From positions 23,122,104 through 23,186,103 of the forward strand of contig NC_088645.1 of the NCBI RefSeq assembly GCF_964019385.1: a stretch of DNA of 64,000 nt. The letters run 5' to 3'. The position numbers and the translations under genes were made by a program. This document shows positions 1,920-62,728 of the stretch, in pieces. Numbering within the stretch: the first letter of the stretch is position 1; each line of letters begins with the position of its first letter. Below the pieces are notes generated by a model. That model was not told the origin of the DNA, ran no database searches, and saw only the letters and a list, made by a program, of their open reading frames with translations. The stretch is from Sycon ciliatum (Eukaryota; Porifera; Calcarea; Leucosolenida; Sycettidae).

Positions 1920-2295
1920 TAGAAAACCTATGGTTGATAAATATGGTGGTAAAGACACACCTGGCAATATGGCGGTAAACACACGCCTGCCCACACACGC
2001 TCTCTAGGCTGCAAAGTTCTGGCACAGAGCTCTCCTTCTCACCACCACCACCACCATCAGTTCGCGCCTGGCGCCTGGTCGATGCATGGTTGGCGGTATC
2101 CGGCATAGCAGGCTGGTACATCAAGTAGCGCATGGCACATAGAAGATGACACAGCAACTACGACATAGCTCGATTGCGACGTACGTTTCGTCCCCGCTGG
2201 ACTCATCAGGCAATCTTCTTCTTGGATGTCTTCATACGGAGCTTGGCTCGGGAGAATGAAGTTGAAGACACCACTGCAGCTGTACTTACGGTTGA
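1920..2295 (-). mobile_element. Hammerhead-bearing dispersed repeat, copy 1
   Basis: This stretch is the reverse complement of the segment near 48,590-49,050. Shared landmarks in the same order are the ATGGCGGTAAA and CCTGGCAATATGG motifs, a CACCACCACCATCAGTTCGCGCC stretch, the hammerhead core and the GGGAGAATGAAG end. It is non-coding. Two copies in opposite orientation suggest a mobile non-autonomous element. Confidence 0.7.
2172..2215 (-). ncRNA. Type I hammerhead ribozyme
   Basis: Read on the minus strand: stem I strand GATTGC, core CTGATGA (2209-2203), stem II GTCC/GGAC with a 5-nt loop, core GAAAC (2189-2185), a very short stem III, cleavage triplet GUC (2180-2178) and the other stem I strand GCAATC (2177-2172). 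All conserved hammerhead core bases are present and stem I pairs perfectly over 6 bp. Short stem III hammerheads are known from animal retroelements and satellites and often act as dimers. Activity is inferred, not shown. Confidence 0.85.
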
Positions 2296-2305
2296 TAAAT
2301 ATAGA

Positions 2306-3397
2306 AAACCTAAGTTAGAGAAATAACACCAAGAACAACAGCAGTGAAATTTACAAGTGTGAATTTTAACCATGAAAGCGAGAGCAGTCATGAATGCGTG
2401 TGCTGACCATAAACTTGCAAATGAAAAATGAACAAACAAGAGAACGAAAGAAGGAAGGACAAAGTGATAACACATAACAGCAATACATTTCACCTAGAAC
2501 ACTAAGGGCCAAGCTTGGCCACACCAAACACGATACGTTACTTGAACAATTTCAACCTAATTATACTATATTTCTGTACACACAAATTAGCCTTGTACAA
2601 ACGCTGATAAAAAGGCTTCCAACACTTTTAACTGTAGTCCATAACCATGACGATCACGGCACAATACAGTGAAAGAAGAGTCGGAATACGAATTGCAACA
2701 ATCAGGACTAGCTAGCAGATGATTGTACATGTACACTGAAGATTTTCTACTACGAAACCTACGCACAACACCAACACTCTCACGACCACTCCCACCATCG
2801 CTTTCCGACTCACTGCTTCCTTCGCCATCCGTTCCATCCTCCGATTCCTCTGCGCTCTCTCTGTTTGGTCCATCCCGCCTGGCCCGCTCCATTGAAATTG
2901 ACTCGGCCGTCAACCTGCTGTCACGTCCTTCCCTTCGCCCTTGGCCGTTGAATGCGTAGCTTCTGTTGTAGTTGGCTGTTGATCGTCTTGGTCTTTCAAT
3001 AGTGGGATTGCATGGCGGATTAGTTGTGGTTGCTGTAGATTGCGTTGTTGGTGTTGGTGTGGGAGCCGGTGATACGCAAGGTGGGTCTTTTTGAGTCGGT
3101 AATTGTAGTGTTAATGTCGCTGCCTGTGTTGTTCGCGGCCTGCCACTGGCAAGCTCCACCACCACAAGAACCGACGGCGGAGGATCAGGAGGGGGCAATG
3201 GGACTGGGACCACATGCGGCACCGCCTCAGCCAAAGCCGCCGGGGGCACTGACGAAGGAGCCACCGACGGCAGGAGCAAAGGCGGCGACACAAGCCGACC
3301 CGAATGATTGCTCTCGCTTTCATTGTTAGAATTCACACTTGTAAATTTCACTGCTGTTGTTCTTGGTGTTATTAAAATTTTCTCTTACTTAGGTTTT
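2306..3397. mobile_element. Foldback element with ~85-bp inverted arms
   Basis: The arm at about 2306-2388 is almost the perfect reverse complement of 3304-3397; the shared core includes AATAACACCAAGAACAACAG and the following GTGAAATTTACAAGTGTGAA. The arms enclose about 900 bp. No target duplication is obvious. It could be a foldback transposon or an inverted duplication of a local segment. Confidence 0.7.
2587..3351 (-). CDS. Hypothetical 254-aa low-complexity ORF inside the foldback
   Basis: This open frame of 254 codons starts inside the right inverted arm. The N-terminal half is Pro/Val/Thr-rich. The middle carries a basic stretch (IERPRRSTANYNR), followed by a Ser/Glu/Asp-rich segment with EESEDGTDGEGS and a basic FRSRKS patch. 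There is no signal peptide, membrane segment or catalytic motif. The basic RPRR-type stretch followed by acidic sequence is reminiscent of retroelement polyprotein tails, but I cannot assign a family. The ORF may be fortuitous. Confidence 0.25.
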   Translation of the reverse strand: MKFTSVNSNNESESNHSGRLVSPPLLLPSVAPSSVPPAALAEAVPHVVPVPLPPPDPPPSVLVVVELASGRPRTTQAATLTLQLPTQKDPPCVSPAPTPTPTTQSTATTTNPPCNPTIERPRRSTANYNRSYAFNGQGRREGRDSRLTAESISMERARRDGPNRESAEESEDGTDGEGSSESESDGGSGRESVGVVRRFRSRKSSVYMYNHLLASPDCCNSYSDSSFTVLCRDRHGYGLQLKVLEAFLSAFVQG

Positions 3398-3398
3398 A

Positions 3399-5081
<1,683 letters not shown>

Positions 5082-5150
5082 AGTGAGAAGGATAACACAA
5101 GGCAGCGAGCATAGGTCTATTTGCAGGACGTGTAGTAGCCGTTGGGCGAA

Positions 5151-8485: not shown

Positions 8486-14556
<6,071 letters not shown>

Positions 14557-15825
14557 ACGCACAGGGTATATCCACTGGTGTCCTCCACCGAATACGAACA
14601 CAGTTCACTGCACAATTCCGTCATGCTTGAAGCAGGAAGGCCGTAAAGAATGTATTTTTGTATTTGTATTTATGGATTCTCCGTAGGCCTTAGCCTAAAT
14701 CGAGGGAGTCTCCGTCAACAACTTTTGTACTGTACTAACTTTTGAGATTGCCTCACAATGGAGCTGTTGCACATTTAATTATACCATTGGTCACAGTGTC
14801 TGCTCTAGTATCTCCTCTAGGATTTCAAACCAACAGGGTTCACGTGTACCTGGCAAAAACCATTGCAACCGGGTCAGAGCCGGGTCCGTTCAAGTGCGGT
14901 TGGCTACTGCATGACTTGTACATCAGGGAGTTGTAAATATTTTAGGGCTCCATGATGTACATGTATTTTGAAGTATTTCCAAGCGGGTCACAGGTGTTCT
15001 TTTCCAAACGGGTCCAAGTACCCTCCCCCCCCCCCCCCTGCCGGGTCGCTGACCCGGATGACCCGGCTCTGGAGCAGACACTGGACCATAGAAGGTAGCC
15101 ATGTTGGTCGCAGCTCCAGTCAATCTCTTCATCTATGGGCCACATGATGTCGGCCACGTTGGTTCCACTGTCTGCATGCAATGTACACTTTCTATCTGGG
15201 AGTCGTAAAATATGTACCACATTATACTTTCGACATCCTGCTTTCTACCCAGATGTGGTTACAGAACCAATATGTGGAGCAAATCTATAAAAAGCTGAAA
15301 GGCTGAAAGCTATGATTGAGTTTTGGAGACAGGAGAATGGTCGAGGAGTGTGTGCATACCATTGGCATTATAAAGGAATCCGTACCTCATTCATCATCTC
15401 TATTGCCAACTGTCCCCACATAGGTGACTGACAACCCCCCCCCAGACACACAACGAACACACTGCCCTCAATCCCTTTGCAGGGATGTCAGTTCAAATCA
15501 TCAGAATTAGTTCGCCTGGCTTCTTTGCAAGCCCTTCGGTCAGTCACCGCTCCGCTGATGAGACCCAAGGAGATCGAAACACACATCTGTCCGCAAACTG
15601 AGGAAGGATCTCATTGCGTGATGTTGCCGGTATTCGAGAGTTTGATTGAACAGACTGAACGCGGGACGCAGGTCTAATCGCCGATCTAATCTTTGCTGTA
15701 CACTACACTACACTACACTACTGGTTGGTGGACCTGATCTATCCTCCCCCACCGTTTAGGAGCCGCATCTGACGCCTGATCATGGGGTGGTTGCGTCCCA
15801 CGGAAGCGGAAAGGTGGTTCTTGAT
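14557..15825. other. Sulfatase 3' flank; no gene seen
   Basis: Contains a local inverted motif set around CCGGGTC/GACCCGG (14,870-15,065), poly-C tracts and the degenerate hammerhead at 15,549-15,600. Confidence 0.45.
15549..15600 (+). ncRNA. Degenerate hammerhead ribozyme-like motif
   Basis: CTGATGA (15,555-15,561), an imperfect stem II GACC/GATC, GAAAC (15,576-15,580), a short stem III and a GTC triplet (15,589-15,591) are in the right order and spacing. Stem II has a mismatch and stem I pairs over only 2 bp. Probably a decayed copy related to that at 33.3 kb (same GTCCGCA...TGAG context). Confidence 0.5.
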
Positions 15826-33100: not shown

Positions 33101-33524
33101 TTTAGTGCTGATGAGGTGCTGTGCACCCACTACATCCTGCACAGAGTGAAAGGCTGTGCTATGGCCGAAACGATCAAAAACTTGCTTTATGTGGTCCTGC
33201 AAAACGCATAATATTGTTATATTGGTCTCCGGGCCTGGGTTAAATCTGGCTTTGGAAAATGTATCTTTCATTGCTACCAGGTTCAGCCTCACCTCCTCTG
33301 TGCTGCGCTGATGAGTCCACAAAGTACGAAACAGTTCTGTCCGCAGATTGAGTATTGTGTATTGGTTGCATGTTGTCTGGTGTTGTGCAGATGGAGGCAA
33401 CAGTCGCTGTTCGCTCATGCTGTGCGACTGCGATAAGATGGTCACGGAGTGTTTCCTGCTGCACAACAGTGCCTACAACGCGTCGCACATCCAGTGGTTT
33501 GACCGAGGCCACTGCCAGCCTTAA
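30103..33524 (+). CDS. Secreted phospholipase A2, paralogue 1 (PLA2-1)
   Basis: Two exons: 30103-30544 (in-frame ATGs also at 30055 and 30076) and 33391-33524. The donor A|GTAAGT and acceptor GTGCAG join in phase 1. A hydrophobic signal ([19 protein letters not shown]) is followed by a propeptide ending in a basic RARRS site. The mature part has the calcium loop YGCWCGVGG and the catalytic [10 protein letters not shown] with His-Asp. Exon 2 carries the [11 protein letters not shown] cysteine motif typical of group I/II-like secreted PLA2. The product should hydrolyse the sn-2 ester of phospholipids with Ca2+, outside the cell. The 2.8-kb intron holds a foldback, a MITE and a hammerhead motif. 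No break is seen in the coding parts. Confidence 0.88.
30707..31083. mobile_element. Foldback element in PLA2-1 intron
   Basis: The left arm (about 30,735-30,822) and right arm (about 30,985-31,075) are reverse complements. Shared blocks are TCTCTTCAGTCAGCGCACCG then GAGCTG, GAAAGGTTCTA and GTCCGTAAACAGGAC. The inner part is again an inverted repeat around TTGCTTGCCGCT. Non-coding. Confidence 0.8.
32773..32962. mobile_element. Foldback MITE, GAAATCCGACCC family
   Basis: Arms contain GCGCTCACTGAAATCCGACC then AAAGCTGGCGCCCT, mirrored at 32,915-32,960. Related short foldbacks are at 36,971-37,122 and 41,701-41,781. Located in the PLA2-1 intron. Confidence 0.8.
33303..33346 (+). ncRNA. Hammerhead ribozyme motif in PLA2-1 intron
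   Basis: Stem I CTGCG/CGCAG pairs perfectly (33,303-33,307 with 33,342-33,346). CTGATGA is at 33,308-33,314, stem II is GTCC/GTAC (one mismatch), GAAAC is at 33,328-33,332, stem III is a minimal CAG/CTG, and the GTC triplet is at 33,339-33,341. It lies 45 bp upstream of the exon 2 acceptor. The surrounding ~130 bp recurs around 38,755-38,870. Confidence 0.75.
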
Positions 33525-37845: not shown

Positions 37846-39344
37846 TCTATCGCGTTTTCCTTGGTGGGATCTCAGAGCAAAGGCTCGTAGTGATTGCCGT
37901 TATCACTGGCAAGACGGCACACTAGCAGGAGTGGCCACAGCTCGTCGACTAAGTCTCTAGCGCCTCACAACTGAAACAACGAGTACTGGTAAAGGGAAAT
38001 AACCGTTTGGTAGCTCCACTGCACTCGATGTTTGGCACAGTTCGGAGGAGTAAGGATTTTTTGAAAGCTCCAGCGACTCGTGTCAACGCCCCTAGTTTTC
38101 TCTGCAATGACCAAACACGGTCCTTTCAACTGCCACCGAGTCTCCGCGCTAGACAAGTACAGCGATGGTCCATAATGATTATGTACTCCACGGGTAGTCC
38201 CTTGTCTCTTGCCTTTCATTTCAGCTTGTCCATGACAGGACAACCATGAACAAGACTACAACACGTACACACGTTGACGGAATCTGAGCTAGGGCTGTTT
38301 CACATTGCCAGGCCTAGTATTGGCAGCCTCAACTACTTGCTCAAGTACAAGTCATGTACAAGTCATGTAGATGTATCTGCCAGTGAGTCACTGTGCAACA
38401 GATGCGCCTAACTGTCAACTGGAAGCGAACTAACACATCGCTCGCTGAACTCTGCCGCATGATATCTTACTGAAGTACAATAATACATATAGCTGCGGAA
38501 TGATTGCATTGTGGAGTCTCGGAGCAATGTTGAACGGACAGAGCCAAGCCACGGAGAACATTTTGCTTTTGGTATTCGCCTACTAGGGCTACGCTGGTGC
38601 GGTACTACACATACATGTAGTAAAGGAGCGGCGTTTGAGTTGCCCACTGGCCTGGACTAGTGTCATCATGACAAATGTAGTACAATCGTCATGTACTACT
38701 TGGAGCATTCTAGCTCTGGCAAGGTACGTTCGGGCATGGTTTTAGGTATTAAATCTGGCTTTGGAAAATTTATTTTTCATTGCTATCAGGTTCGGCTTCG
38801 TTTTCCTCTGTGCTACGCTGATGAGTCCACGAAGGCCAAAACAGTTCTGTCCACAGATTGAGTTTTACTTCGAAGTAGTATGTTGTTCGGGTAGCGACTA
38901 GAGAAGAGCAAGAGCTTCAAAACAACTTTTCCTGTAGCTGTGTGCTGCCAAACGCAGGTTAACCGTTACCATTGCCTAGCTTAAGGCCACTGCTAAGCGC
39001 CTTTTGCCAGACGTCCAGCAGCGATGAAACAGACCTATGATAAATTAGTCATTCGTGCTAGGGTTTCCGCCACGTAATAATGCCTCCTGGTGCGATTGAA
39101 GAAGCCTCTTATACGAGCAATCACACAACGTGCTATCACTGGCCTGACACAACAACTAAAGAAAAAGGAAAGAAAAAAGTAATGCCTCCTGGTTGTCGTG
39201 GTTTGTTCGCCCTGCCTGGTGTGGGTGAATGTGAGTAAACGAGTTCTTACCTATACAGCGGTAGCTTGAGGATGACAGCATATTACAAGGTGGAGGACAC
39301 ATTTATAGAGAGGTTAAATAAATATGCACGCTATTTCCGACGTG
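37846..39344. other. No gene seen
   Basis: Non-coding flank of PLA2-2. It contains the diverged repeat at 38,755-38,870 with a dead hammerhead, and a fragment GACAGCATATTACAAGGTGG (39,274) of the foldback family seen at 9.75 kb. Confidence 0.45.
38814..38857 (+). ncRNA. Decayed hammerhead motif
   Basis: CTGATGA and GTCC/GGCC are present, but the GAAAC element reads AAAAC, so an essential core G is lost. The stem III CAG/CTG and GTC triplet remain. The flanks match the 33.3-kb copy, so this is a mutated relative and should not cleave. Confidence 0.6.
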
Positions 39345-40510: not shown

Positions 40511-40619
40511 TTCTATATGGACCTCCACTAATTCTCGTGATCCCTGACTGGTCCTATATTACCCATATCACCGCAATATCGACCGCTTGTATCGACCACT
40601 TAGGCATTGTAATCTTTCG

Positions 40620-47114: not shown

Positions 47115-48589
47115 CCCCTAACATTCCTCTTCATAATCCTCTTGGCTAGCACTAGCAGGCACTGGGCTGCAGTAGATTACATACAATAATATTATGCATA
47201 ACTAAACAATGCTACGGCGTGCAAGCTGACGTGCATGCTCAGTACGACAGTAGTCGTCCGGCTTGTGCTAGTTTCATGCTGATCATCCTTCTCTATCATT
47301 TCCGAGATATGCACGTGGATATTATAGTGAAGACTACATCCGGAATCTCCAGTTACCCGTGTATGAAATTGATATTGTACTCGTTTTGTCGCCAGTCTCC
47401 TTCCTTCTTCCCCTTGGCCCGTCCTGCACACTCCCCCCCCCCCCTCGCTGCCTTCTGAATTCATCTCTGACTCTGTTAATCTCTCAGGAGTCAGGTCACG
47501 TCCAATGGCGAAGCAACATTACCAATTGTTTGGGAGGTTGCTTTTCGCAGTCCTGCGTCAATTTTACACAGTGTTCTGTTGATTCCATCATCGTCGATCC
47601 TGATCTACACACTTTCGTGTCGTGCATTAACTTAAGTAATTTCATAAGCGATGGTCCCTGGTTCGAGTCCTGGTAGTGGTAGACAGTTTTTTCTTCCAAC
47701 TTTCCCCTTTCAGCTTCCTCTAGCTCCAGAGAGTATCCAGGCTTCGCATGGCGAGCCAAGGGAGGCAGAGGAAAGCACAGGGGGGGGGGGGGGGGGGGGG
47801 CAAGCGGTGCGTTAGACTAGAGTCCACCAGCAAAACTACACTCGTCTTGAGAACATCCAGACGCGCACGATTATATTTAAGCCAAGCTGACAAGGGATGC
47901 AGAGACAGTCCACGTCATGATTGATGTTGTACAAGCTTGAGTCGGATCGTCTAGTAAAAGATCTGGTTGCCGTAGGTCTTGACATGTAGTGTACTCAGTA
48001 GCATGCACGGCCTGGTCTAAGGCTACCGGAGGCACTACCCACACTGCGTGAACACACGTATCTAGAGCTCACCCCGGCTCGGCCTGGAGACAAGTTTAGG
48101 AAGTATTTATATAATACAAGAATAAGACAAACTGCAACAACTGAACTGCAACTGAACTGAACTACAACTAGCGTTGAGGAATATACTAGGAAGACAATTT
48201 TAAAAGACAGACCAATCATTATTATTATTATATTATGGAAGAACTAACTACGTCACAGTACGTGTACTAGTACTGAGTGGTGATGGTGTAATGTGAGTAA
48301 AACGAGAGTAATGTACACAATACAAGCTAGTGTAGAGTGTATGTAAGTAAGATGCAGAACGAAATCGAAGAAGCACACACAGCACCCGTTCTGCGAGCAG
48401 AATTTTTCATCTGAACTGCAACACATGTACGTAAAAAGCAGATCACCTGTCAGTGTGCAACTGCACTTGATCAGGCTGGCGCATACGCAACGTTAATTGC
48501 GTTTTACATGTACGTCGTAGTGTGTAAGAGCTGGGATGTGCAGTAGATGTGAACGTGTTAGTGTTCGGGTGATGACACCACTGCACTGC
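47115..48589. other. No gene seen
   Basis: Contains a 21-G run (47,780-47,800) and a B-box-like GGTTCGAGTCC (47,660) that might belong to an old tRNA-derived SINE; no clear A-box was seen. No coding signal. Confidence 0.4.
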
Positions 48590-49050
48590 TGTACTTATGC
48601 TTCATTCTCCCGAGTCAAGTATTAGTTCCGTATGAAGACATATGAAGACATCCAAGAAGAAGATTGCCTGATGAGTCCAGCGGGGACGAAACGTACATGT
48701 ACGTAGCAATCGAGCTGTGTCGTTGCTGTGTCATCTTCTATGTGACATGCGCTACTTGATGTACCAGCCTGCTTAGCAGCTATGTCGGACACCACTAGCC
48801 ATGCATCGACTAGGCGCCAGGCGCGAACTGATGGTAGTGGTGGTGAGAAGGAGAGCTCTGTACCAGAACATTTGCAGCCTAGAGTCTAGTAGAGAGCGTG
48901 TGTGCGCAGGCGTGTCTTTACCGCCATATTGCCAGAGGTGTCTTTACCACCATTTTCTTCACTGTACTCCGGTTACAGTCCGGTATTTTATTCATAACTA
49001 CTAGTATGGTGGTAAACACGCACCTGGCAATATGGCGGTAAATGCACGCC
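48590..49050 (+). mobile_element. Hammerhead-bearing dispersed repeat, copy 2
   Basis: Sense copy of the repeat at 1920-2295. After the ribozyme it continues to TTTACCGCCATATTGCCAG (48,918), mirrored at about 49,000-49,043 (TGGCAATATGGCGGTAAA), so the right part is a foldback. Confidence 0.7.
48662..48711 (+). ncRNA. Type I hammerhead ribozyme
   Basis: Stem I GATTGC/GCAATC is perfect. CTGATGA is at 48,668-48,674, stem II GTCC/GGAC has a 5-nt loop, GAAAC is at 48,688-48,692, and stem III is the self-complementary ACGTAC/GTACGT. The cleavage triplet GTA ends at 48,705. All core bases match the hammerhead consensus. Compared with the 2.2-kb copy, stem III is longer and the triplet is GUA instead of GUC. 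Confidence 0.88.
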
Positions 49051-49364: not shown

Positions 49365-49542
49365 CCGGCGGATTCTGCTCGAAAAGGTGGCAGATTCTGC
49401 TCGAACAGCAGTGAAATTGGCAGAACCATTCAAACCTTATGGCGGGCAATTCCTCGAATTCTGCTCCATTTCTTTATCCACATACCAAACATGCATGAAA
49501 CTTACCAGAAAGAGTACCGAATTCTGCCGATTTTTCTGCCGG
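49365..49542 (+). mobile_element. MITE copy C, left part (split by Ginger-like insertion)
   Basis: Starts CCGGCGGATTCTGCTCG and runs to CTGCCGG at 49,542. The missing end (CATTATCCGCCGG) is at 54,954-54,966, on the far side of the 5.4-kb transposon. Confidence 0.85.
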
Positions 49543-49690
49543 TGTACTATAGTAGAATGACCCCCCAGCAGATGGACCCCCCGGGCATTGTACTATATAG
49601 TAGAGTGACCCCGGGGTCACTCTACTATATAGTACAATGCCCGGGGGGTCATTCTACTATATAGTAGATTGCCCCCTGTCATTCTACTAC
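49543..49690. repeat. Left palindromic terminal repeat of the Ginger-like element
   Basis: Contains repeated CTACTATATAGTA palindromes and a large hairpin: TGTACTATATAGTAGAGTGA-CCCCGGGG-TCACTCTACTATATAGTACA. GGGGGGTCATTCTACTA modules alternate in both orientations. Confidence 0.85.
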
Positions 49691-49930
49691 AGAGTCCACC
49701 AGACTTGTCGTTTCGCACGTGCAATACCAATACTGATCCAGATCTGGTGCATTGATATTATTATAATAATATCCTCGATCCTTTTCAGTAATAGAGAAAT
49801 TCATAAGTAGGTAAATAGGTGAAATAACCATTCTCATTCTAAGTGTTAGACCATTATTTTGTAGCTGTTCAAGTATTTCACTTTTAGGTATCAATATTTT
49901 TTATAGTATCCTCTCTTTTCTATTCGGAAC

Positions 49931-52684: not shown

Positions 52685-52843
52685 TATATATGCAACATAT
52701 TGTGCGTGCATCCTCCCCTAGCTTTCATTCAGTGTGTTGATGATTGTTACTTTTCTGTGTAGCTGTTTTTTGTTACTGCTGGGGCCCCGCTGATTCCTTG
52801 TTGGCCCCGCTGGGTCCAAATCTCTAGCAACATTTAGTGGAAA

Positions 52844-54155
52844 TTGTTATTTATTCAGTGGATTTTAAATGGAAAACACCAAGAAAAGTTACAGTTGGTA
52901 TGCAGGTTAGGCGGTGAAAAGTTGTGTAGTACTAGCCGTGGAACTCAGCACCTTGTGAGAGATCATGCGAAAGCCATTGAATCTGTGCTGAGTATTAATG
53001 TGTTGTGTGGTGACCAAAAAACTCATGCATATGAATATGCATGTAGCTCCAGCCTCATCCAGTCTGCATTTAGACGATGCAACAATTGGCATGGATATTC
53101 CCCTGATGAAACTGTACGACATTGCATCACCGCCATACAAAGCAATAGCTGACTTGCTGCCGGAACGCTTTAAATACGGAGTTCGTTGCAGCAGGTGCCA
53201 ACTTGCAGCACGCACGGCGGTACAACAACGTGATTAGAAAAGCCATTCTTCCTGTTGAGCTGCAAGACGTGTGTATTCCTGTGCTTCACCTAGATCTAGG
53301 GATTTATCCCTGGATTTACGGTGCACTTTGTGCTGACACACATCAAATCGATATTGCACTGAGCAAATGTATGTTTCTTGCTGCAGATGACGGTGACTCT
53401 GCAGCGTTTACAGCACTTATCAATTCCTACAAGAACGTACACGACACAGCAACACAACAACTACACCTACAGTCAGAAGCACAAAGCATTCTTAGGCAGC
53501 TGCAGTGTGTGACGCTGCACATTCAGCAGCAGGAAGTAGTGGCTGCTGGCTTGCAGACTGTGGCATCAAATCTGCACTTCCTATGGAAGGAGAAAGAAAA
53601 GGAACTCAATTTGATGAATGAGAGGTGATGAATGAGGTGATGTGGCTCGAAAAGAGCATGAGAAATTAACAGTAAAAGATTTAAAAAAAGCAGCTGGCCC
53701 GTGCGTAACTAATTACTTCCTTGGAAGCAGTACTGCCACAGTACCAAATAAAGCGGCAAGCATATCACTCTGGAGCATTTGTCGGCAACCACATACACCG
53801 TGCGTTGAAACCGGATGTCATTGCTGCCCTCACTTCTGTTCCCCTTACAGTCGTGCAGAGCCGCACACCTGCGGACAGCGGCGAGGTTCAGCTGCTTGCC
53901 CAGGCAAAGTCCTTGAGAGATCGCTACTCGAGACTCTTCACAGAGTATGCAGCATGTCGCAAGCTGGTTTTTACAACAGCAACAAAGCAGGTTCTGGGTG
54001 ATGCCATCCACACCTTCATGGCCACCTGCAGAGCGAAGGTTCTGGCACGCAAGTTAAGCAATGTGACTCCTAAGCTTCACCTTCTCGAGTGCCATGTCCT
54101 TCCTTGTACAGGGTTGAAATTAATTATTGTTGATCTGTTCGGCCACACACTCTGA
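52844..54155 (+). pseudogene. Remnant of a second transposon protein
   Basis: Protein-like pieces in three frames: LDDATIGMDIPLMKLYDIASPPYKAI (about 53,060-53,150), VCIPVLHLDLGIYPWIYGAL (53,270-53,330) with a helical tail to 53,625, then AYHSGAFVGNHIHRALKP (53,755-53,810) and TPKLHLLECHVLP (54,066-54,105). Similar blocks occur in uncharacterised invertebrate transposon-related proteins; I cannot name the family. Stops and frame changes show decay. The last block runs straight into the hammerhead-like tandem array. Confidence 0.45.
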
Positions 54156-54485
54156 GCTCCTCTGATGAGACCTAACAAGGTTGAAATTAATTCTTGCTGA
54201 TCTGTTCGGCCACACACTCTGAGCTCCTCTGATGAGACCTAACAAGGTTGAAATTAATTCTTGCTGATCTGTTCGGCCACACACTCTGAGCTCCGCTGAT
54301 GAGACCTAACAAGGTCGAAATTAATTCTTGCTGATCTGTTCGGCCACACACTCTGAGCTCCCCTGATGAGACCTAACACTGTAACAGGGTTGAAATTAAT
54401 TCTTGCTGATCTGTTCGGCCACACACTGTGAACTCCGCTGATGAGACCTAACAAGGTCGAAACAGCTATAGCTGTCCGGAGATTG
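54110..54485 (+). repeat. 67-bp tandem array with hammerhead cores
   Basis: A unit of 67 bp repeats with CTGATGA at 54,162, 54,229, 54,296 and 54,363. A fifth copy at 54,438 is spaced 75 bp because of an 8-bp insertion. Each has CTGATGA-GACC-TAACAA-GGT(T/C)-GAAA. The first four continue into TTAATTCTTGCTGATCTG and lack a proper stem III and stem I; only the last is a full ribozyme. It lies inside the Ginger-like element. Confidence 0.85.
54433..54481 (+). ncRNA. Type I hammerhead ribozyme ending the tandem array
   Basis: Stem I CTCCG/CGGAG (perfect, 54,433-54,437 with 54,477-54,481), CTGATGA (54,438-54,444), stem II GACC/GGTC with loop TAACAA, GAAAC (54,459-54,463), stem III CAGCT/AGCTG, triplet GTC (54,474-54,476). 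Complete consensus. Confidence 0.88.
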
Positions 54486-54844
54486 AGTCAACTTGACAAA
54501 AAGTTCTCCTCCGATCCGAGGCGCAGGTCGTCATTTTGCGAAAGAGTCCTCAGCACATCTCCTTTATCTGCTACTGAGCGGTATCCGTTGCACTTCGCGG
54601 AGCACAGCTGCCTCCAACAACATTTTTTGACGAGCGAGAGACTGAAGAGACGAAATCCATAAAAGTACTATTTCAAGTATTCGAAGTGACAGAACCTTTT
54701 CTTTCTGCAGAAATGATCATGAAAATAATAATTTGAAAAATGCGATGAGCGTACCCACGCTTTCCGTGTGACCTCCGTTGCCAGGGGCGTTGCTACAGGT
54801 CGCCGCCATCTTGCCAAGTGACCTCCCCGTAACAGCCGTGCGAG

Positions 54845-54949
54845 GGGGGTCGTTGTACTATAATAGTAGAGTGACCCCGGGGGCAATCTACTATTATAGT
54901 ACAATGACCGGGGGGCCTTCCACTACGGGGGTCATTCTACTATATGACA
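54845..54949. repeat. Right palindromic terminal repeat of the Ginger-like element
   Basis: Mirror of the left end: TTGTACTATAATAGTAGAGT, GACCCCGGGGGCAATC and GGGGGTCATTCTACTATATG ending at GACA. Confidence 0.85.
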
Positions 54950-54953
54950 CCGG

Positions 54954-54970
54954 CATTATCCGCCGGACCC
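54954..54970 (+). mobile_element. MITE copy C, right end
   Basis: CATTATCCGCCGGACCC completes the MITE copy interrupted at 49,542. Confidence 0.75.
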
Positions 54971-55910
54971 TAATCTCAGCATGGCAAAAGACAGCCGGCA
55001 CCGGATCCACGACATGACCTGGCTGTACGGCTCCTTCGTCTTTCTGAGACTAGAGACGCGACACGCTTGTAGAAGGTGGCGGCGGATTTCCCCATCCCAC
55101 CACTGGCTGAGAAAACCAATGGCAGGAAGGTGGCATGCTCAATGTCCCTGACGCGTTGGCCATAGTGTCGACGTTTTTATTTCTCATGGCGCTGGTACGT
55201 GCTGGTGAGTGAGGAGGTCCGATTCGATTGCGTGAAAGGGTTGCAAACCCGTACATCGAGAAACACACGCTCGAATCTTCCGCCCCACACACCACCATGT
55301 TTCTCAACTACGAAAGCCCATGCAGGGAAATAGGCCTTGGGCTCCAATCTGGGTAGAGCTCAGGAGCAAAAGCCTGAAATGGGTGGTGAGACTTTAATAC
55401 AATGTAGTGCACTCGGCCGACCTGAGGACTGAGTGAGGTCTCGGCTTCATAGACATAGTGACTCGGCTCTCGACTTCATACTGACTCGGCTCTCGGCTTC
55501 ATAGTGAGCTAGATGCACTACGAACTAGACATACCAATCATGACACTAAATAGGCTGAAAAAGGGGAGAGAGGGGGAGAAAGAATGTTAGGGTAAGAATA
55601 AGTACCTTGGGCATGGCCAGTAAGTAGTGGAGGCACTGTCCTACTGCCCGTGGGGTTAGCGTCTCACAAGTAACACGTTTAATAGTTAGTTAGTTCTCAG
55701 CGTTCGGCTGTAGTTGTGCGGCGGCCACGAGACAGAGGAATGTGTACCAACAGGTGGGTGACTTGGCCATGGTACGGTGACGTGTGGTGATCGTCATGGT
55801 CCGCAGAGAATGCAATTACGTAACGCATAACGTTATGCGTGACGCAGTACGAACATCATGGAATAGGTTTCACGTTACATTTATGCACTGTCATGTTATA
55901 GCTAGCTGTA

Positions 55911-55960
55911 CATTGTACTGATGAGGCCTTTGTGGCCGAAACTGCTTGCTGTCCATAGCA
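55911..55960 (+). ncRNA. Hammerhead ribozyme-like motif, weak outer stems
   Basis: CTGATGA (55,918-55,924), a perfect stem II GGCC/GGCC with TTTGT loop and GAAAC (55,938-55,942). Stem III has a T-T mismatch and the triplet is GTC (55,951-55,953). Stem I pairing is poor. Confidence 0.6.
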
Positions 55961-56023
55961 TTGTGTATGCAATGTAACATACACTCTACAATGAATGACT
56001 ATCGGTATCTAGAGTCAGTATTC

Positions 56024-56063
56024 GCGCTGATGAGTCCACAAAGGACGAAACAGTTCTGTCCGC
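56024..56063 (+). ncRNA. Hammerhead ribozyme, minimal type I
   Basis: CTGATGA (56,027-56,033), perfect stem II GTCC/GGAC with ACAAA loop, GAAAC (56,047-56,051), two-to-three-pair stem III CAG/CTG around TT, triplet GTC (56,058-56,060), stem I GCG/CGC. Same family as 33.3 and 38.8 kb, and the least mutated of the three. Such tiny stem III versions are known to work best as dimers. Confidence 0.8.
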
Positions 56064-56556
56064 AGATCGAGTACAGTCCGTACTCGATATTCTGTTACTG
56101 GCCTACACACGACCTCCTCCCTGTGCGGGCAAGCCCACAATCATTAGTATTCATTACACATGCGCCAGCTACTACTAGTAGTAGTAGTAGTAGCTGCTGA
56201 TCGAACACTGTCTGTGACTACAAGTACAAAGGAATGATAGGATCTGGCTCAGAGAGGACATCACCACTTTGAGGAACTTTGTTCAGCTTTATCATTAATT
56301 TGTTCGGCGAGGGAGACGCAGCCACGCATCTTTCAACTTCTCCCGGTCACTGACACATAATCGTACGCACTGAACGGATTGAGAACTGCACTAACTGTTC
56401 GTCGTCGCTGTAGCAAGTTAGTTTTTCGATGGCAGCGATGGCTCTGAAGCCAATGTGTGGGATTTTCATCATGGTCTCAGTGTTTCTGGTCATCGTGCAA
56501 ACCAACGCCTTGCCCTCTCCGATCCAAGCGGAAGCTGATCAGGAACATGGGCTACA

Positions 56557-56608
<52 letters not shown>

Positions 56609-56924
56609 TGATCACAGCTCACAGGCAAAGACAAAAAATTGCATAGTGGGAGCATAGTGATGGTGAGGCTTTTTTGCCCTCAGCCGACCTGAGGTCTCGA
56701 CGTCATGGGGACATAAAACGCACCAAAAAAAGAAAAAAAATGAAAGGAGTGACAGGTACATGATACGAAATGTTAGGAGGAGAGACAGTACATTAGAAGG
56801 AGGGGAATGATAAGACAGACAGTGCTAGGAGGAGAAGGAGAGAAAAGAAGAACAGACGTTATTGGGAATAGTATGTGGAGCGGAATTTGGAAGTCATGGG
56901 GTGAGGCAGATATGATGCTGATGA

Positions 56925-59807
56925 TCAGAGATGGTCATGTGCCCACGACCAGTCGTTGGTCTTCAAATAGCGGTTGGCTGCAACTTTGAAGTGTTGCAAG
57001 TTCTTGGTGCAGAAAGGACCAGAGAAGACTCCGGCGGGCAGCTGGTTCCAGATGGGGACAACTGCGTGAGGGTAGGCTCGACACAGGTTGTTTCGAGAAC
57101 GGACTGGAAGTTCATTGGCCAGTTGGTGTGCGTGAGCATTACATCTCTGGAATGTACTACGGGTGGAGTGGACTGTTCGGTGTTGGGGCTGCTGGGGTGG
57201 CAGCATCCTCTGTAGAAGGGGATGCGCATCCGGACAATGCATCTTGTACAGGAGGCAAAGTGCTGCAACCATCCGACGAAGAGCAAGACTCGGCAGCCAA
57301 CACATTGGGGCGATGGCACGGATGGCCCGGGCTTGCACACGGTCGAGTCTTGCAAGATGGGATGGGGCCGCTCCCATCCAGACAATAGGGCAGTACTCCA
57401 TCACTGGGCGCACAAAAGCATTGTAGGCTTGGATGCGACCGGGCACGTCTAGGAGGTGGAAAGCCTTACGCAAAGCACCAAGTCGCTGTGTTGCCCGGAG
57501 GGCTACGGTACGAAGGTGGCGCCGGAAGGTAAGCTGACCATCGAAACTGATGCCCAAGATTTTGAGCTCCTCCTGTTCCATCACATTTGATCCGTTGAAG
57601 TCAATCGGTGGCATGTCCCATTGAGTGCGGTGGAAACTGACGGTCAGTGCCTGGGATTTGGCTGGTTCAAATTTTATTTTCCATTCTTGACCCCAGCGGG
57701 AGATGTTGTTGACTGCTAGCTGGAGGGCTTGGGTGGTATCTTCTTGGGTAGTGGGGGTGATGTTGGCATACAGCGTAGTGTCGTCTGCGAACGAGGCTAG
57801 GTCAGCACCGGCTGGTACGTGGTCCTCGCAGTCGTTCACGTACATGAGGAAGAGAGTCGGACCCAGAATACTGCCCTGGGGGACTCCAGCCTGAATTGGG
57901 AGCCTTGAGGATGTCTGGCCACAAATGACCACTTGAAGGTAGCGTTCACGGAGGTAGCTGCTGAGCCACTGGTGCAGTTTCCCACGCAGGCCGTATACGT
58001 CGGACTTGTGTAGCACACCGGGGTGTGATACGCGATCAAACGCACCGGCGATGTCAATGGCGAGTATGCGTGCTGCGCCTTTCTCCCCGGCTGTATGCAG
58101 CCACTGGTGGTGGAGGCTGGTAAGGAGGTCGGCTGCACTATGACCATGGCGAAATCCAAACTGTCTGGTGGAGAAGACGTTGTTCGACTCAAGGAAATTT
58201 GTGATTGTTCTGTTGATGATTGTCTCCATCACCTTGGACAGAATACACAAGAGCGAAACTGGACGGTAATTGGAGGGTAGAGACTTTGATTTCCGTTTGA
58301 ATATAGGGACTATGTTGGCAATCTTCCATGTCTTGGGTTGTATCCCAGTTTGGAAGCATTGGGTAAACAGTATGGAAAGCGGTTGCGCCAGTTCAGCAGA
58401 GCAGGCTTTCAACACTCGTGCCGGTATCCTATCCGGCCCGGTTGCCTTTGATGGGTTGAGCTGGCGAAGGGTGCGTTCAACAGCAGCGACGCGGAAACGG
58501 ACGTCCGAAAGGGCCTGGTCAGTTCGAGGTCTGACATATGGGAATGGGGCGGACAGGTCATCTTGTGCGAGACTGCATTTGCTTGCAAAATAGCGGGCCA
58601 TGCATTCTGCTTTGTCTGCGCTGGCTGTGTACTCTCGTCCATCGGGATCACGTAATGTCGGAACAGATTGACTACGCCCATTGCCAGAGGCACGCTTGAC
58701 GGTGCGCCACCAGTCACTGGGTGGCAGCTGCTTTGAGGTCATTTTCTGTCTCAGTTTCGCCATGAAAGCACTCTTGGCAGTTTTGAGACAGGCAATCGTT
58801 GAGAGCCGTGCATCTTGGTAGGCTGACTGCCGATCGTGGTCAGACTGGTCATCTCTCAGGCACCTCCATGCACGTCGTTTCCTCACTGTGGCAGCAGTGC
58901 ACTCAGGGGTCCACCATGGAGGATCTGATGCTCGGGTTTTCAGAATTTTAGAGGGGATGAATCTCTTCATACCCTCCAGGATCCTCTCTGAGATGCCAGT
59001 GCATGACAGGTCTGGATCAGTCCGAGCAATAGCTGCCCAATTGGTGGTTCTGAAGAAGTGACGGAGCCTGGCCCAATCAGCATGCTGATACCTCCATACT
59101 GTTCTTGATATGGGAGGCTCGCGTGATGCACGGATCTGGAAGTCAGCAAGTATACAGGCATGGTCAGATTTGCCAAGAGGTGGCAAGACAGTAGCCAATG
59201 ATTCTACGGGTAGGTCGGACATAATCAGGTCCAGTGTGTTGCGGCCACGCGTTGGTTGGTCGACTAGCTGCTCAAGACCGTGCATGTAGCACATGTCCTC
59301 TGCATGCTCGCCGGCTCTAGTTGTTCTGCTACTGTGGAGCCACTCTTGGTTATGTACATTGAAGTCTCCAGCAACTATCACAGCAGAGTTGCGGCAGGCT
59401 GTGGAGGTGAGGCCCCTGCAGATCACGTCGAAGATGCTGGTGTCTGTGTCTGAGCACGTTCCAGGACGGTATGCAGCACATATAGCCACAGGCCGGCCAT
59501 TTGACAGTTTGACGTTTAGCCATACTAGCTCCTGGCCGAAGACATCAATGGTATCCAGTTCGTTCATGGCTAGCGTGGCCTTCACCCAAACTGCCACCCC
59601 GCCACCATGGCGGTTTCGGTCGCGTCTCAGAGGCTGGTAGTAGCCAGGGAGTGTCAACTCTGCTTGAGTCACAGCCTCTGACAGCTTAGACTCTGTTACT
59701 ATGGCAACATCTGGGGATTCAGCATGGAGCACATGGCGGAATTCATCTAACTTACTCATTAGCCCAAAGGCATTTGTTACGAACAGTTTCAGGGTTTTGT
59801 TGGTCAT
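56925..59807 (-). CDS. LINE A ORF2: AP endonuclease and reverse transcriptase
   Basis: 960 residues, no internal stop. The N-terminal AP-like endonuclease has N12 (TNAFGL), E39 (VTES), GDFNVHN (D148, N150), LDLIMSD and SDH (D215, H216). The reverse transcriptase has NPSKATGPDRIP, NYRPVSLLCILSK, LAIDIAGAFD (D585), GVPQGSILGP and FADD (residues 673-676). The C-terminal part (VRPVMEYCPIVW, RLDRVQARAIRAI) is typical of this group. It nicks target DNA and copies the LINE RNA at the nick. The start ATG overlaps the ORF1 stop as TAATG (59,809-59,805). All catalytic residues are present. Confidence 0.93.
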   Translation of the reverse strand: MTNKTLKLFVTNAFGLMSKLDEFRHVLHAESPDVAIVTESKLSEAVTQAELTLPGYYQPLRRDRNRHGGGVAVWVKATLAMNELDTIDVFGQELVWLNVKLSNGRPVAICAAYRPGTCSDTDTSIFDVICRGLTSTACRNSAVIVAGDFNVHNQEWLHSSRTTRAGEHAEDMCYMHGLEQLVDQPTRGRNTLDLIMSDLPVESLATVLPPLGKSDHACILADFQIRASREPPISRTVWRYQHADWARLRHFFRTTNWAAIARTDPDLSCTGISERILEGMKRFIPSKILKTRASDPPWWTPECTAATVRKRRAWRCLRDDQSDHDRQSAYQDARLSTIACLKTAKSAFMAKLRQKMTSKQLPPSDWWRTVKRASGNGRSQSVPTLRDPDGREYTASADKAECMARYFASKCSLAQDDLSAPFPYVRPRTDQALSDVRFRVAAVERTLRQLNPSKATGPDRIPARVLKACSAELAQPLSILFTQCFQTGIQPKTWKIANIVPIFKRKSKSLPSNYRPVSLLCILSKVMETIINRTITNFLESNNVFSTRQFGFRHGHSAADLLTSLHHQWLHTAGEKGAARILAIDIAGAFDRVSHPGVLHKSDVYGLRGKLHQWLSSYLRERYLQVVICGQTSSRLPIQAGVPQGSILGPTLFLMYVNDCEDHVPAGADLASFADDTTLYANITPTTQEDTTQALQLAVNNISRWGQEWKIKFEPAKSQALTVSFHRTQWDMPPIDFNGSNVMEQEELKILGISFDGQLTFRRHLRTVALRATQRLGALRKAFHLLDVPGRIQAYNAFVRPVMEYCPIVWMGAAPSHLARLDRVQARAIRAIAPMCWLPSLALRRMVAALCLLYKMHCPDAHPLLQRMLPPQQPQHRTVHSTRSTFQRCNAHAHQLANELPVRSRNNLCRAYPHAVVPIWNQLPAGVFSGPFCTKNLQHFKVAANRYLKTNDWSWAHDHL

Positions 59808-60600
59808 TACCGGCTTAGGGGTGCAAACGCATTGCCAACTGAGACAGGGTACTTGGCTGCTTGGTCTGCAGGTGGTGAATCTCGCTGGTGGGAGCGAGCT
59901 TTCATCCCTGGAGTTCGACTCGAGGTACCTGCATCGGCAGAGCTTCCATCCTCACTGTCCCTTTCATCTGCACTGCTTGCGTTGCCAGTGGTGTTTGCCT
60001 GTGGTGCGGAAGATTCTGCGGTGCTGCTGCTGTTGCTGCTGCTGTTGTCGCTGCTCAGGCTGCTGTTGCTGCTGTTGTCGCTGCTACTGCTGCTGCTGTT
60101 GCTGCTTCTGCTGTTGTCGCTGCTGCTGTTGTCATTGCTGCTGCTGCTGCTGTTTTCGCTGTTGCTGCTGCGGTTTCCGCCAGAGTGTTTGGAGAAGCGC
60201 CATGGTCGGCAGTACAAAGGCCTAGGCCAGAAGTTGGGGGCGGTCACAATAGGCATGGAGGTGGCATCTACAGTGACTCTGGCTGATACTCGTCCACTCT
60301 CTCCTACATGTACACTGCAGGTATGCACGGGAATGGAAGAGCCTGACATTGCCTGTTCGCTTCTGTCCATGATGAACTGTTTCAGGCGGTCCTCTGTGCA
60401 ATCTGGGGAGATGTTGCCCACATAGGCAACAGAGCGCTTGGTCTTGGGTGGTCCTGCAGAGACCAACTTCCAAGAGTCGTCCGTGATGGTGCTGAACACA
60501 GGCTTGGAGTTCTTGACTGGCAGGAGTTCAGTACCCTCTGCGTCAGAGTACATGACATTGTACTCCGTTTCCGTGTCCACTGAGGGCACCGTCACCGAGA
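59807..60600 (-). CDS. LINE A ORF1, C-terminal part
   Basis: About 262 residues without an ATG at the upstream edge, because LINE B is inserted at about 60,600. VAYVGNISPDCTEDRLKQFI looks like an RNA-recognition-type fold (RNP-like VAYVGNI). A long Ser/Asn run and an Arg/Asp-rich tail follow. ORF1 proteins bind LINE RNA. It ends in the TAA that overlaps the ORF2 start. Confidence 0.7.
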
Positions 60601-60605
60601 AACCT

Positions 60606-61255
60606 TCGTAAAGTGCCTAGTGTTGCCAGATTTTCTATATGCATCAAATTGTTTTTCTGCTGGCCTTTCCTTAACCCAGTTAGGTAGGCTTGAACGAATG
60701 CTAAAGCGAGCTTTGCGTTCAGTGTATGATACTGGTTTTTGTAGCCCATCAAGCCCTTTATTTGCGAGACTTGGTCTAGATCGTTTGGCAACCATGTATT
60801 GCAAGAAATTACTGTATCTGACGTGGCGCTGTTTGGAAGGCCGCTGTAGTGTCACATTAAGTCAAATGTTCGAGCGTTTAAATAATGGTCTTGCAACGCG
60901 CAGCCTTGTATCACGCACTCTTAAGTTGCCCATGCTCAGAACTGCCTTTGCCCGTCATGGCGCTTCCTTCCAATGTGCTAAGCTGTGGAATGATTTGCAC
61001 CCTCTAGCTCGCTGTGTGGATAACTCCGCCCGTTTTAAGAAACTGTTACCCCAATGCCTTGCTTTTTCACGCTAGTAATTATGACTTTCAGCTATGCAAA
61101 ATGCGAACATGATCACCTATCCAATACCGGTAGTCTACTATGTTAATTATTCATATCTTTTTGCATCTTTCCCTCGAGTGGGTCTATTGTTATTAGGCAA
61201 TTGTCTGTTATAGTCACCACTATAAATAAAAATCCAATCCAATCCAATCCAAATC
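60606..61255 (+). mobile_element. LINE B, 5'-truncated 3' end, plus strand
   Basis: The open frame 60,620-61,075 is the C-terminal end of a reverse-transcriptase protein (RLERMLKRALRSVY, KLLYLTWRCL, LPMLRTAFARHGASFQCAKL, WNDLHPLARC). A 3' UTR follows and then an (AATCC)n tail at 61,230-61,255, typical of some CR1/L2-type LINEs. It is inserted in LINE A ORF1. Confidence 0.8.
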
Positions 61256-61665
61256 CGTCTTGCCTGCGTGCCAGGGTGTGGCAGCGCTACGGGTACGGGG
61301 TTCAGTGTGCGTTCCCACGTGTTCTGCCTGCTGCTTTGACTTTTTTCACTATTTGCGCGCGGCTTAGACTTTCCAGTTAGCGTACGGGTACTATTCGTAC
61401 TACTAGCTGCACTCTCCTTGACCTCCTCGCCTTTTTGTTGCTGTTGGTCGACATGGGCAATGGCGGACTGCCTCAAGGAGCTCAGTTCGCCTCGTAACTC
61501 TGAAACGTGTGCACATAGCTCATCCACACGCCGTTTCACGCGCTCCTCTCTATCTCTAGACTCACTGACATACGACGACAATTGCTGGATCAAGCTGATG
61601 ACATTGGCTTCGATGCCTGGGAGACTGCACAGAAGTCTCAGGGGTTCACCTGCCAGCTCGTCCAT
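61256..61665 (-). CDS. LINE A ORF1, N-terminal coiled-coil part
   Basis: Open frame on the minus strand starting at an ATG near 61,664 ([12 protein letters not shown]). It has a heptad-rich segment ([20 protein letters not shown], then [20 protein letters not shown]) and a Ser/Lys/Arg-rich stretch up to the LINE B tail. Coiled coils are common in LINE ORF1 proteins. The open frame also extends upstream over PLA2-4 exon sequence, probably by chance. Confidence 0.55.
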
Positions 61666-62340
61666 GGCGGTGATCTGGACAACCAGCAGAAACACCACCA
61701 ACAGCCTCTGGCCAGTAGGAGTCGCCATAGGCGCTCGCTGGTCGATTTCGCCGCCCAGATCCAGTGCTCAACACTACCATCAACATCGTTCACTAGCGCG
61801 GTCGTCGGGTCCAATCCGGGCCATCTCTTGGGTTCTGCTTTAGTCTGGGGATCATACGGGTGCTGGTGTGGCGTTGGCGGCAGTGGAAGAACTGTGGACG
61901 CGATTGATGAGTGCTGCAAAGTACACGACAAGTGTTACGAACGTCAAGATAGCTGTTATCCCAAGTCGATTCCCTACTTTTGGCATTGCGAGAACGGAGC
62001 GCCGATTTGCTCCTCCAAGGAGGCTAAATACTGGTACGACTATCTCCGAGGTAAGGCCGATACATTTATTGTTGTTGCATGAGCGCACTTTGAAGCAAGT
62101 GGTTAAAACTCTTATGCAGTTCACTAGTTGTGCGAGAGAGCATCATCTCAACACACAACATAATTATAGATGTACACCTTACACAGGGCTTTTCCGGTGA
62201 AACATTTGAAGGCTCTCAAATCTCCCCAATGCTGTGTTGCTGTTCCCGTCACTGTACAGTCAGTCACTGTACAGTCAGTCACCTTCTTGTGTAAAGACCT
62301 ACTAGTATTAAATAGAAGTTGCGACTTCGGCGATGATTTT

Positions 62341-62728
62341 GTTTAGGAATGGGTTTGCTCCCACACTCACCGTCCAGGAGCGATAACTGACTCACGCTGC
62401 TATCTGGTGTTCACGAGGTGTTTGTCGCGCTGGAAACGGAGTGTCTCTGTAAGTTTGTATCCCTGGTGATGTTTGTGCCTGGACAGCACTATATAAGTGG
62501 TGCTTTTCAGGCGCAATCTTCCTCAGCCTACTCAAGCTCAACTGATGAGGGGTGAATTCCCCGAAACACTGTGTATTGAGCAGGGAGTGGTGCTTTCTTG
62601 CAGGCTTGCCGAGTCGAAGGTTCGATGGACTTCTCGTGTTCTCTGGATGGCAGTCGTGAGTCAGTCAAGTGTCAAGTCGTCGGCGGAATAGCGCGAGCTC
62701 CAGTGTGGGAGCAAACCCATTCCTAAAC
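62341..62728. mobile_element. TIR element carrying a hammerhead ribozyme
   Basis: Perfect 27-bp inverted ends: GTTTAGGAATGGGTTTGCTC (plus CCACACT) at 62,341-62,367, mirrored at 62,702-62,728. The 388-bp interior is non-coding and has a complete hammerhead at 62,537-62,580. ACTAGTATT occurs at 62,301-62,309 and 62,731-62,739, a possible target duplication, though the left copy is 31 bp away. It lies in the PLA2-4 intron. Confidence 0.8.
62537..62580 (+). ncRNA. Type I hammerhead ribozyme inside the TIR element
   Basis: Stem I CTCAA/TTGAG (perfect, 62,537-62,541 with 62,576-62,580), CTGATGA (62,542-62,548), stem II GGGG/CCCC with TGAATT loop, GAAAC (62,563-62,567), short stem III ACA/TGT, triplet GTA (62,573-62,575). 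Complete consensus. Confidence 0.87.

Follow-up and report, generated by a model that had tools for sequence, protein, structure and literature searches.

Hammerhead ribozymes in a window of the Sycon ciliatum genome are carried largely by small retrozymes, two families of which bear insertion scars resembling those of Penelope-like elements

A stretch of 64,000 nucleotides of the genome of the calcareous sponge Sycon ciliatum (NCBI RefSeq assembly GCF_964019385.1, contig NC_088645.1, positions 23,122,104 to 23,186,103), hereafter the window, with positions counted from its first letter, contains hammerhead ribozymes of several sequence families. The locus raises the question of what carries these ribozymes and which enzyme has spread them. 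For animal retrozymes in general, the accessible portions of the literature treat this enzyme as an open question: Penelope-like elements (PLEs) are only named, as strong candidate mobilisers of retrozymes, in the available text of Cervera and de la Pena 2020 (PMC7229834), and that of PMC7761336 describes retrozyme repeats as showing no motif that would reveal a mobiliser. The insertion scars of two families found here, termed B and E, suggest an answer, if the reading set out below is true: both are probably mobilised in trans by a PLE protein, perhaps from circular RNA.

The core motif CTGATGA...GAAA was found 18 times in the window against 1.68 expected, a number attained in none of 100 shuffles. 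A full descriptor for the type I hammerhead (core, stem I of at least 4 bp, stem II of at least 3 bp, and stem III of at least 2 bp) matched at five sites, 2209(-), 48668, 54438, 55918, and 62542, and nowhere in 60 shuffles. All five have the CUGAUGA core, stem II, GAAA, a closed stem III, an NUH triplet, and a stem I open at both ends. The first-pass annotation, made from the letters alone, had held that the hammerheads exceed chance and fall into several families, and both points are borne out, with families A, B, and E and types C, D, and F told apart. As sequence and structure motifs the window hammerheads are real, and they would be expected to self-cleave. Of the five sites that had been listed as complete, those at 2.2, 48.7, 54.4, and 62.5 kb were recovered by the descriptor, but the one at 56.0 kb is truncated inside stem I; its core is intact, and its stem I has only 3 bp by eye because the copy begins there, at 56024. 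The site at 55.9 kb (type D, 55909..55976, plus strand) had been called decayed, but its core is intact and, when stem III is allowed to span 26 nt, the descriptor gives a complete fold in which stem I has 9 bp; relatives of it are found in locus L040. The hammerheads at 33.3, 38.8, and 15.5 kb were graded defective by eye, as before, with a stem II mismatch at 33308-33331 in the first and a broken stem I in the last (type F, 15540..15603, plus strand), which is 75% alike to a family A copy, L005, across 57 bp. A tiny stem III had also been described, and this applies to some copies but not to those at 48.7 and 54.4 kb, in which stem III comprises 5 bp with a 4-nt loop by eye. The hammerhead of one B copy (2172..2215, minus strand) has a GTC triplet, and the descriptor pairing at 2209(-) is an alternative there, as an ordinary GTC fold with a 2-bp stem III fits too by eye. 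A second B hammerhead (48662..48711, plus strand) has a GTA triplet and stems I and II of 6 and 4 bp, and the E hammerhead (62536..62581, plus strand) has GTA, stems I and II of 6 and 4 bp, and a short stem III.

To place these motifs in the host genome (538 Mb in 313 contigs), matching loci were cut out and numbered with the prefix L. Families A, B, and E have units of 228, 352, and 476 bp, respectively, with one hammerhead each, and occur in tandem or as solitary units dispersed on many contigs. Genome searches gave at least 264 matches for B (from 40 scored of 1530 first-look candidates), at least 113 for E (40 of 596), at least 54 for A (40 of 53), and at least 44 for C (40 of 466), all of these being lower bounds, and the loci fetched for each family are its best-scoring copies and not a random sample. 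By unit, by tandem and dispersed layout, and by target duplications, the A, B, and E carriers classify as small non-autonomous non-long terminal repeat (non-LTR) retrozymes. The earlier suggestion of small non-autonomous carriers thus holds for these three multicopy and often tandem families, but not for C, which rides in a DNA transposon with terminal inverted repeats (TIRs). Metazoan non-LTR retrozymes, as described in the available text of PMC7229834, have a type I hammerhead in small tandem units of about 170-400 nt, dispersed, with no protein frame, no LTR, and target duplications longer than 4 bp. A, B, and E are alike in having small non-coding units with a type I hammerhead and duplications of more than 4 bp, although the E unit is longer at 476 bp.

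A covariance search with Rfam had been proposed as a check on the hammerheads and was run; it is passed by one window site. At the gathering threshold the single hammerhead match in the window is to Hammerhead_1, at 2172-2215(-) with 35.4 bits. Four more sites appear below cut-off at E values up to 5 (54421-54498, HH9, 28.9 bits; 56025-56062, type I, 25.5; 55903-55947, type III, 23.0; 33291-33363, HH9, 21.6), and the hammerheads at 48668 and 62542 went unreported up to the same E value. Among the fetched loci, Hammerhead_1 (RF00163, gathering 34) reported 11 B hammerheads in L010, L015, and L033 at 35.4 bits, including all seven B units of L015, and four A-type hammerheads in L001-L004 at 34.6-34.9 bits. 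Hammerhead_HH9 (RF02275) was the best model for C and several A copies, at 27.8-33.3 bits, under its cut-off of 52. No report was obtained for the E hammerhead in the five E loci scanned (L010, L081, L083, L084, and L086), for the minimal PLE hammerhead in L069, L074, and L079, or for the B hammerheads in the plus block of L010. At the thresholds applied, Rfam overlooks the 62.5-kb motif as well as its relatives, so a count based on covariance models only would be too low.

The way in which B and E copies sit in the genome carries the link to PLEs. In the window, one B retrozyme (1929..2302, minus strand) is a one-directional copy consisting of one full 352-bp unit plus overlap, with its 3' end at unit position 345, in the short (S) zone described below, and the target duplication TATAGAAAACCTA on both flanks. 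An older B insertion (48570..48953, plus strand) has a short minus block, 48570-48599, joined to a plus block, 48600-48953, and was left out of the end and target-duplication counts; a 46-bp remnant of a B 3' end (unit 287-332, 91%) lies at 49005..49050 on the minus strand. The E retrozyme (62310..62730, plus strand) is two-ended, with a minus block aligned over 62318-62362 and a plus block over 62366-62722. The target duplication ACTAGTATT, present at 62301-62309 and again at 62731-62739, delimits the insertion. On the left the alignment stops at unit 383 and on the right at 357, and ACTAGTATT puts the ends at about 391 and 365, such that the longer 3' end is on the minus (left) block and the shorter on the plus (right) block. 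The inverted ends of this copy measure 30 bp.

The same arrangement recurs across the fetched copies. The 30 B loci, L009-L038, reduce to 19 distinct insertions once L009 (the window copy) and the repeat arrays L013, L014, L016-L018, L021-L023, L034, and L035 are left out. In 14 of these 19, a minus block is followed by a plus block, head to head, with the 5' ends central and the 3' ends outward. The outer 3' ends of B fall into two zones, a short one (S, unit 340-345) and a long one (L, unit 25-40), about 40 nt further round the circle. Twelve of the 14 head-to-head insertions (all but L020 and L025) show both of their ends, and 11 of these have one S and one L end, the S end of L024 lying at 329, 11 nt short of the zone; the twelfth, L029, has an S end plus another site, 283. 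The five one-directional copies have an S end in L011, L012, and L019 and an L end in L030 and L033. For E, the loci L080-L087, among which L081 and L082 represent the same insertion, add up with the window copy to eight distinct insertions; seven are two-ended, the window's included, and one (L083) is one-directional with an S end. Here S is unit 360-365 and L is 392-397, and five of the seven two-ended insertions pair S with L; L080 pairs S with 439 and L087 pairs S with 94. Pooled over both families, S and L ends are 32-40 nt apart, and 16 of 19 two-ended insertions (12 B and 7 E) pair S with L, with no case of like with like.

Target duplications around B and E insertions scored at least 9 in 20 of 24 sites, compared with 2.9% of 922 mismatched flank pairs, in a test that omitted L020, L025, L080, L087, and the second B copy of the window. 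Most are 9-17 bp long, with one of 22 bp in an AAT repeat at L015. Several lie in ATT repeats and others in plain sequence, e.g. TGGATTATACCCCA at L026. Copies of B, E, and the PLE described below located in ATT repeats are those of L010, L015, L081, L084, L086, and L074. The head-to-head junctions at L015:1419-1566 and L081:1271-1421 form long hairpins that matched Rfam microRNA families below cut-off, and such junctions are a possible origin of false microRNA calls.

It had been pointed out that no Penelope protein is nearby, and indeed tblastn with the PLE protein of the host genome gave no match in the window at E values up to 1. This absence does not separate the elements from Penelope, because the B and E insertions bear the PLE signature and PLEs are found elsewhere in the genome. 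A profile search with PF01541 matched at least 13 places (150 of 944 candidates scored). At locus L069, an 807-amino acid (aa) open frame contains a GIY-YIG domain (24.5 bits) and, by eye, a YIDD motif, and many of 66 relatives carry RVT_1, PF26215, or PF01541. On these grounds, the reverse transcriptase (RT) being assigned by motif and by RVT_1-bearing relatives, L069 qualifies as a PLE with RT and GIY-YIG predicted in one open reading frame (ORF). Its inverted ends measure about 385 bp, one of them being longer by a 34-nt tail, and it has a minimal hammerhead motif at 3602 with a 2-bp stem III by eye. The PLE loci L070 and L074 also end with a tail.

According to the available text of Arkhipova and colleagues (PMC3846280), a typical Penelope insert has pLTRs in direct and inverted orientation, is flanked by a duplication of 9 bp, and bears a 31-bp tail at one of its ends. 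In the accessible part of the study by Frangieh and colleagues (PMC11167929), the PLE protein cuts and extends both strands and prefers ATT; initiation occurs at two internal sites, the interval between them being the tail, which is there called unique to PLEs; and no strand difference was seen between the start sites in vitro. The pairing of S with L within each insertion adds to that in vitro result. B and E share with PLEs the tandem and inverted layout, a short target duplication, the 30-40-bp tail, ATT-rich targets, and a hammerhead in the unit, the head-to-head arrangement with a 30-40-nt tail being found in the 16 of 19 two-ended insertions noted above. They are nevertheless not PLE members: their units are of 352 and 476 bp, they encode no protein, the window has no PLE protein, and their hammerhead is fuller, whereas that of the genome's PLE is minimal. 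The same source reports that hammerhead mutations left PLE insertion in vitro unaffected, so the ribozyme may serve template making rather than insertion. The word "retrozyme" is absent from the main text of PMC11167929, and comparison with the portions of the literature available suggests that the B/E anatomy of two head-to-head blocks, target duplications, and paired alternative 3' ends is new here.

Family A is inserted differently. The window contains a 5'-truncated copy that ends at the hammerhead foot (33240..33356, plus strand), a decayed 5'-truncated copy (38749..38866, plus strand), and an extremely 5'-truncated copy that is the hammerhead alone with a 3-bp stem I (56024..56073, plus strand); a target duplication was sought around all three and none was found. 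In the genome, L002, L039, L051, L056-L058, L063, L064, and L068 were left out of the end set as repeats or for want of a clear end. Of the 31 fetched ends, 26 exit the unit just after ..TTGAG or a one-letter variant, that is, 12 nt past the cleavage site at the distal end of stem I of the hammerhead, and five deviate by a few letters (L007, L052, L062, L065, and L067). Target duplications scored at least 8 in 19 of 34 sites, the window's three included, compared with 1.7% of 1302 control pairs. They often start with TA, the element's next letters, which suggests primer pairing. No Penelope-like tail was seen among the 31 ends, and the head-to-head arrangement was likewise not found for A. In L041, the sole case of outward-facing A blocks, 243 bp separate the two blocks and a TA repeat of its own flanks each; they are taken as two separate insertions. 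At L068:1501-1959, an A array and an inverted block lie tail to tail, with their 3' ends facing, the opposite of B and E. Copies of about hammerhead length alone (L001 and L005) allow the solo hammerheads of the window to be read as 5'-truncated retrozymes. Compared for compensatory changes in the stems, eleven distinct A-type variants have C-G (8), T-A (2), or a broken pair (1) at the second pair of stem II, a change that probably reflects one event. A single viral-contig scan with the A hammerhead gave no match.

Taken together, we consider it likely that the PLE RT/GIY-YIG protein moves B and E RNA, probably as circles, from two start sites and with head-to-head cDNAs, and that A moves by target-primed reverse transcription from a site of its own. 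The hammerheads would cleave multi-unit transcripts, and the resulting monomers would be circularised, as in related retrozymes. The B or E RNA, most likely a circle, would be taken up by the PLE protein, which would cut both strands of an AT-rich target and initiate reverse transcription at internal positions of the RNA. Each target strand would have its own start site, the two sites lying 32-40 nt from each other. Tandem units would result when an enzyme went round the circle more than once. The two cDNAs, randomly truncated, would then be joined head to head, with target duplications, mostly of 9-17 bp, on either side. For family A, target-primed reverse transcription would start from the single site at the hammerhead foot. 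Both the circles and transposition in trans are here inferred. A more specific version, in which one PLE dimer copies one RNA circle onto both cut ends simultaneously, each subunit beginning at one of two fixed sites 32-40 nt apart and the product being two head-to-head rolling-circle cDNAs, and in which the A class uses another enzyme with the hammerhead as start mark, is put forward tentatively, with slightly more doubt than confidence.

Several results weigh against mobilisation of B and E by a PLE protein. Three of the 19 two-ended insertions (L029, L080, and L087) depart from the S/L pairing, and the sampled copies are not random. Folding of the B monomer showed self-pairing that is not unusual (z = +1.08). 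A sequence motif common to PLE and retrozyme ends was tested and was mostly not significant. Similarity between tails was weak, with 96 (PLE-B), 1154 (PLE-E), and 252 (B-E) of 2000 shuffle pairs scoring as well. For the regions before the S end, the number of 3000 scoring as well was 97 (L079 with the window copy) and 430 (L071 with L010) for PLE2-E, 2692 for PLE1-E, 180 for PLE1-B, 2043 for PLE2-B, 2500 for PLE2-A, and 1619 for PLE1-A. The 9-mer CTACTTCGT at the L site is common to PLE1 and E only, and the L site of B matched it no better than 92 of 352 unit positions. A GUGU-loop hairpin precedes the S end in PLE1, PLE2, and E (chance about 0.018) and, under a strict rule, is absent in B and A.

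The form of the template was judged from median distances between units within and between loci, with no permutation test. For B the medians were 0.0048 within a locus on the same strand, 0.0032 between opposite blocks, and 0.0145 between loci, and in 10 of 13 loci the within-locus median lay under that locus's median to others. For E they were 0.0061, 0.0079, and 0.0189, respectively, and for A 0.031 within and 0.035 between loci. A rather doubtful but serious alternative is that the template was not a circle but a linear RNA, multimeric or read-through, transcribed from a source array. It would suit the A arrays, which hardly differ within and between loci, and the B and E loci that are no more alike inside than to others; these also count against the circle, as homogeneity is not general in B (exceptions L010, L012, and L027, three of 13), and in E most pairs come from L081 and L083 and four of seven loci (L010, L085, L086, and L087) lack it. 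The ends, moreover, lie away from the cleavage site (12 nt beyond it in A), and a long linear transcript could yield homogeneous arrays too if the array it came from was homogeneous. On the other side, many B arrays are homogeneous on both strands, the pattern expected from one circle (in L015 the median distance among the seven units is 0.0000), and related animal retrozymes are, in the accessible text of PMC7229834, abundant circles. A single template per insertion is thus supported for B, weakly supported for E, and not supported for A. In the A arrays L002, L043, and L053, different unit variants are mixed, as if the enzyme had switched templates or copied a mixed array.

Other mobilisers would have to explain the same scars. 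5' truncation, target duplications of similar size, and inversions occur with long interspersed elements (LINEs) too, family A looks LINE-like, and a LINE with endonuclease and RT domains lies inside the window at 56925-59951(-), so an ordinary LINE might have moved B and E. The blocks would then be due to twin priming of the kind that gives L1 5' inversions, with the end zones as alternative transcript 3' ends. In twin priming, however, the second primer lands at varying internal sites, whereas here the outer ends are confined to two narrow zones, with S paired to L in 16 of 19 cases. Tandem units are not expected from a linear LINE template, the window LINE apparently ends in poly(A) (T46, 56559-56604), unlike the A, B, and E ends described, and the tail pattern is the one called unique to PLEs in PMC11167929, to the extent that its text was available; we regard movement by an ordinary LINE as unlikely. 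Still less probable is a satellite-like origin, in which the repeats would spread by unequal crossing-over, rolling-circle DNA, or gene conversion with the hammerheads as passengers. Tandem arrays of near-identical units are found, and a newt satellite DNA with a hammerhead is mentioned in the available part of PMC7229834, but crossing-over does not make head-to-head blocks with paired ends, and the clustered ends and target duplications of dispersed copies, around single units and arrays alike, require insertion through a target break, for which reason this origin was rejected. The inverted ends of E and B, 30 bp long in the window E copy, might also be read as ordinary TIRs of a DNA transposon or miniature inverted-repeat element. 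That reading is very improbable and was rejected, because one-directional copies exist, the length of the inverted part varies between about 30 bp and entire multi-unit blocks, and a similar step, of 32-40 nt, separates the two ends.

Type C has a different carrier. The right part of a TIR transposon (52754..54838, plus strand), cut at 52754 and with a right end in ..CGTAACAGCCGTG, contains a 67-bp tandem array (54108..54462, plus strand) with five CTGATGA..GAAA sites. The four upstream sites lack stem III and the cleavage triplet by eye, and the last is the hammerhead at 54.4 kb (54433..54481, plus strand), which is complete, with a GTC triplet, stem I of 5 bp, stem II of 4 bp or more, and the 5-bp stem III noted above (HH9, below cut-off). 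It shares a ..GATTGAG end with family A. Elsewhere, two full copies of the carrier, about 2.6 kb long with CAC...GTG ends, start with CACGGCTGTTACG and finish with CGTAACAGCCGTG; one is flanked by CGTAC and the other by C runs. CAC ends together with 5-bp duplications are reminiscent of Transib-type transposons. The complete C hammerhead is identical through stem III in six of the eight fetched loci (L088-L091, L094, and L095), L092 has no complete copy, and L093 has a solo C hammerhead outside the transposon; no target duplication was found around the C array or L093. The simplest account is that type C would be a retrozyme hitch-hiking in a DNA transposon. An open frame in the carrier (53709-54155, plus strand) has three relatives, one an uncharacterised protein of the sponge Amphimedon, and no Pfam match. 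Upstream, a long ORF (49907-52684, plus strand) with integrase H2C2, rve, and OTU domains adjoins ATT-rich palindromic repeats (49537-49698), inverted counterparts of which are found at 54853-54955; we take this assembly to resemble a Ginger-type transposon. Placement of the C array inside such a Ginger-like integrase transposon (49.54 to 54.95 kb) was considered and dropped, as the copies elsewhere show the 2.6-kb CACGGCTGTTACG-ended element.

If B and E are indeed moved by a PLE protein, the two-site tail rule is a genomic fingerprint that could be checked in any animal genome with retrozymes, and here it names a candidate partner. B and E would also offer research on PLEs a small natural template in which the start sites are mapped. 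Relative to described retrozymes, the insertion scars point B and E to PLEs and set A apart, such that two retrozyme classes would be separated by mechanism inside one genome. A single full-text search of open-access literature returned no paper on hammerhead ribozymes in sponges, and the families would extend the described retrozymes to a calcareous sponge.

Several other features were noted in the window. A LINE at 56559-59951 (minus strand) has endonuclease and RT in a 1008-aa frame, after which, on the same strand, come 46 consecutive A bases; it lies 0.5 kb from a solo hammerhead. A tRNA-like match at 40169-40240 (minus strand), just at the Rfam cut-off, falls in a duplicated 400-bp stretch (40026-41039) and is possibly a tRNA-derived short interspersed element. 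Exons of a sulfatase gene lie at 8841-9302 and 12651-13591 (plus strand), the first recognised by domain score and the later ones by eye. At least three phospholipase A2 genes are found within 32 kb, at 30043-30711 (plus strand), 37147-37899 (minus strand), and 61519-62082 (plus strand).

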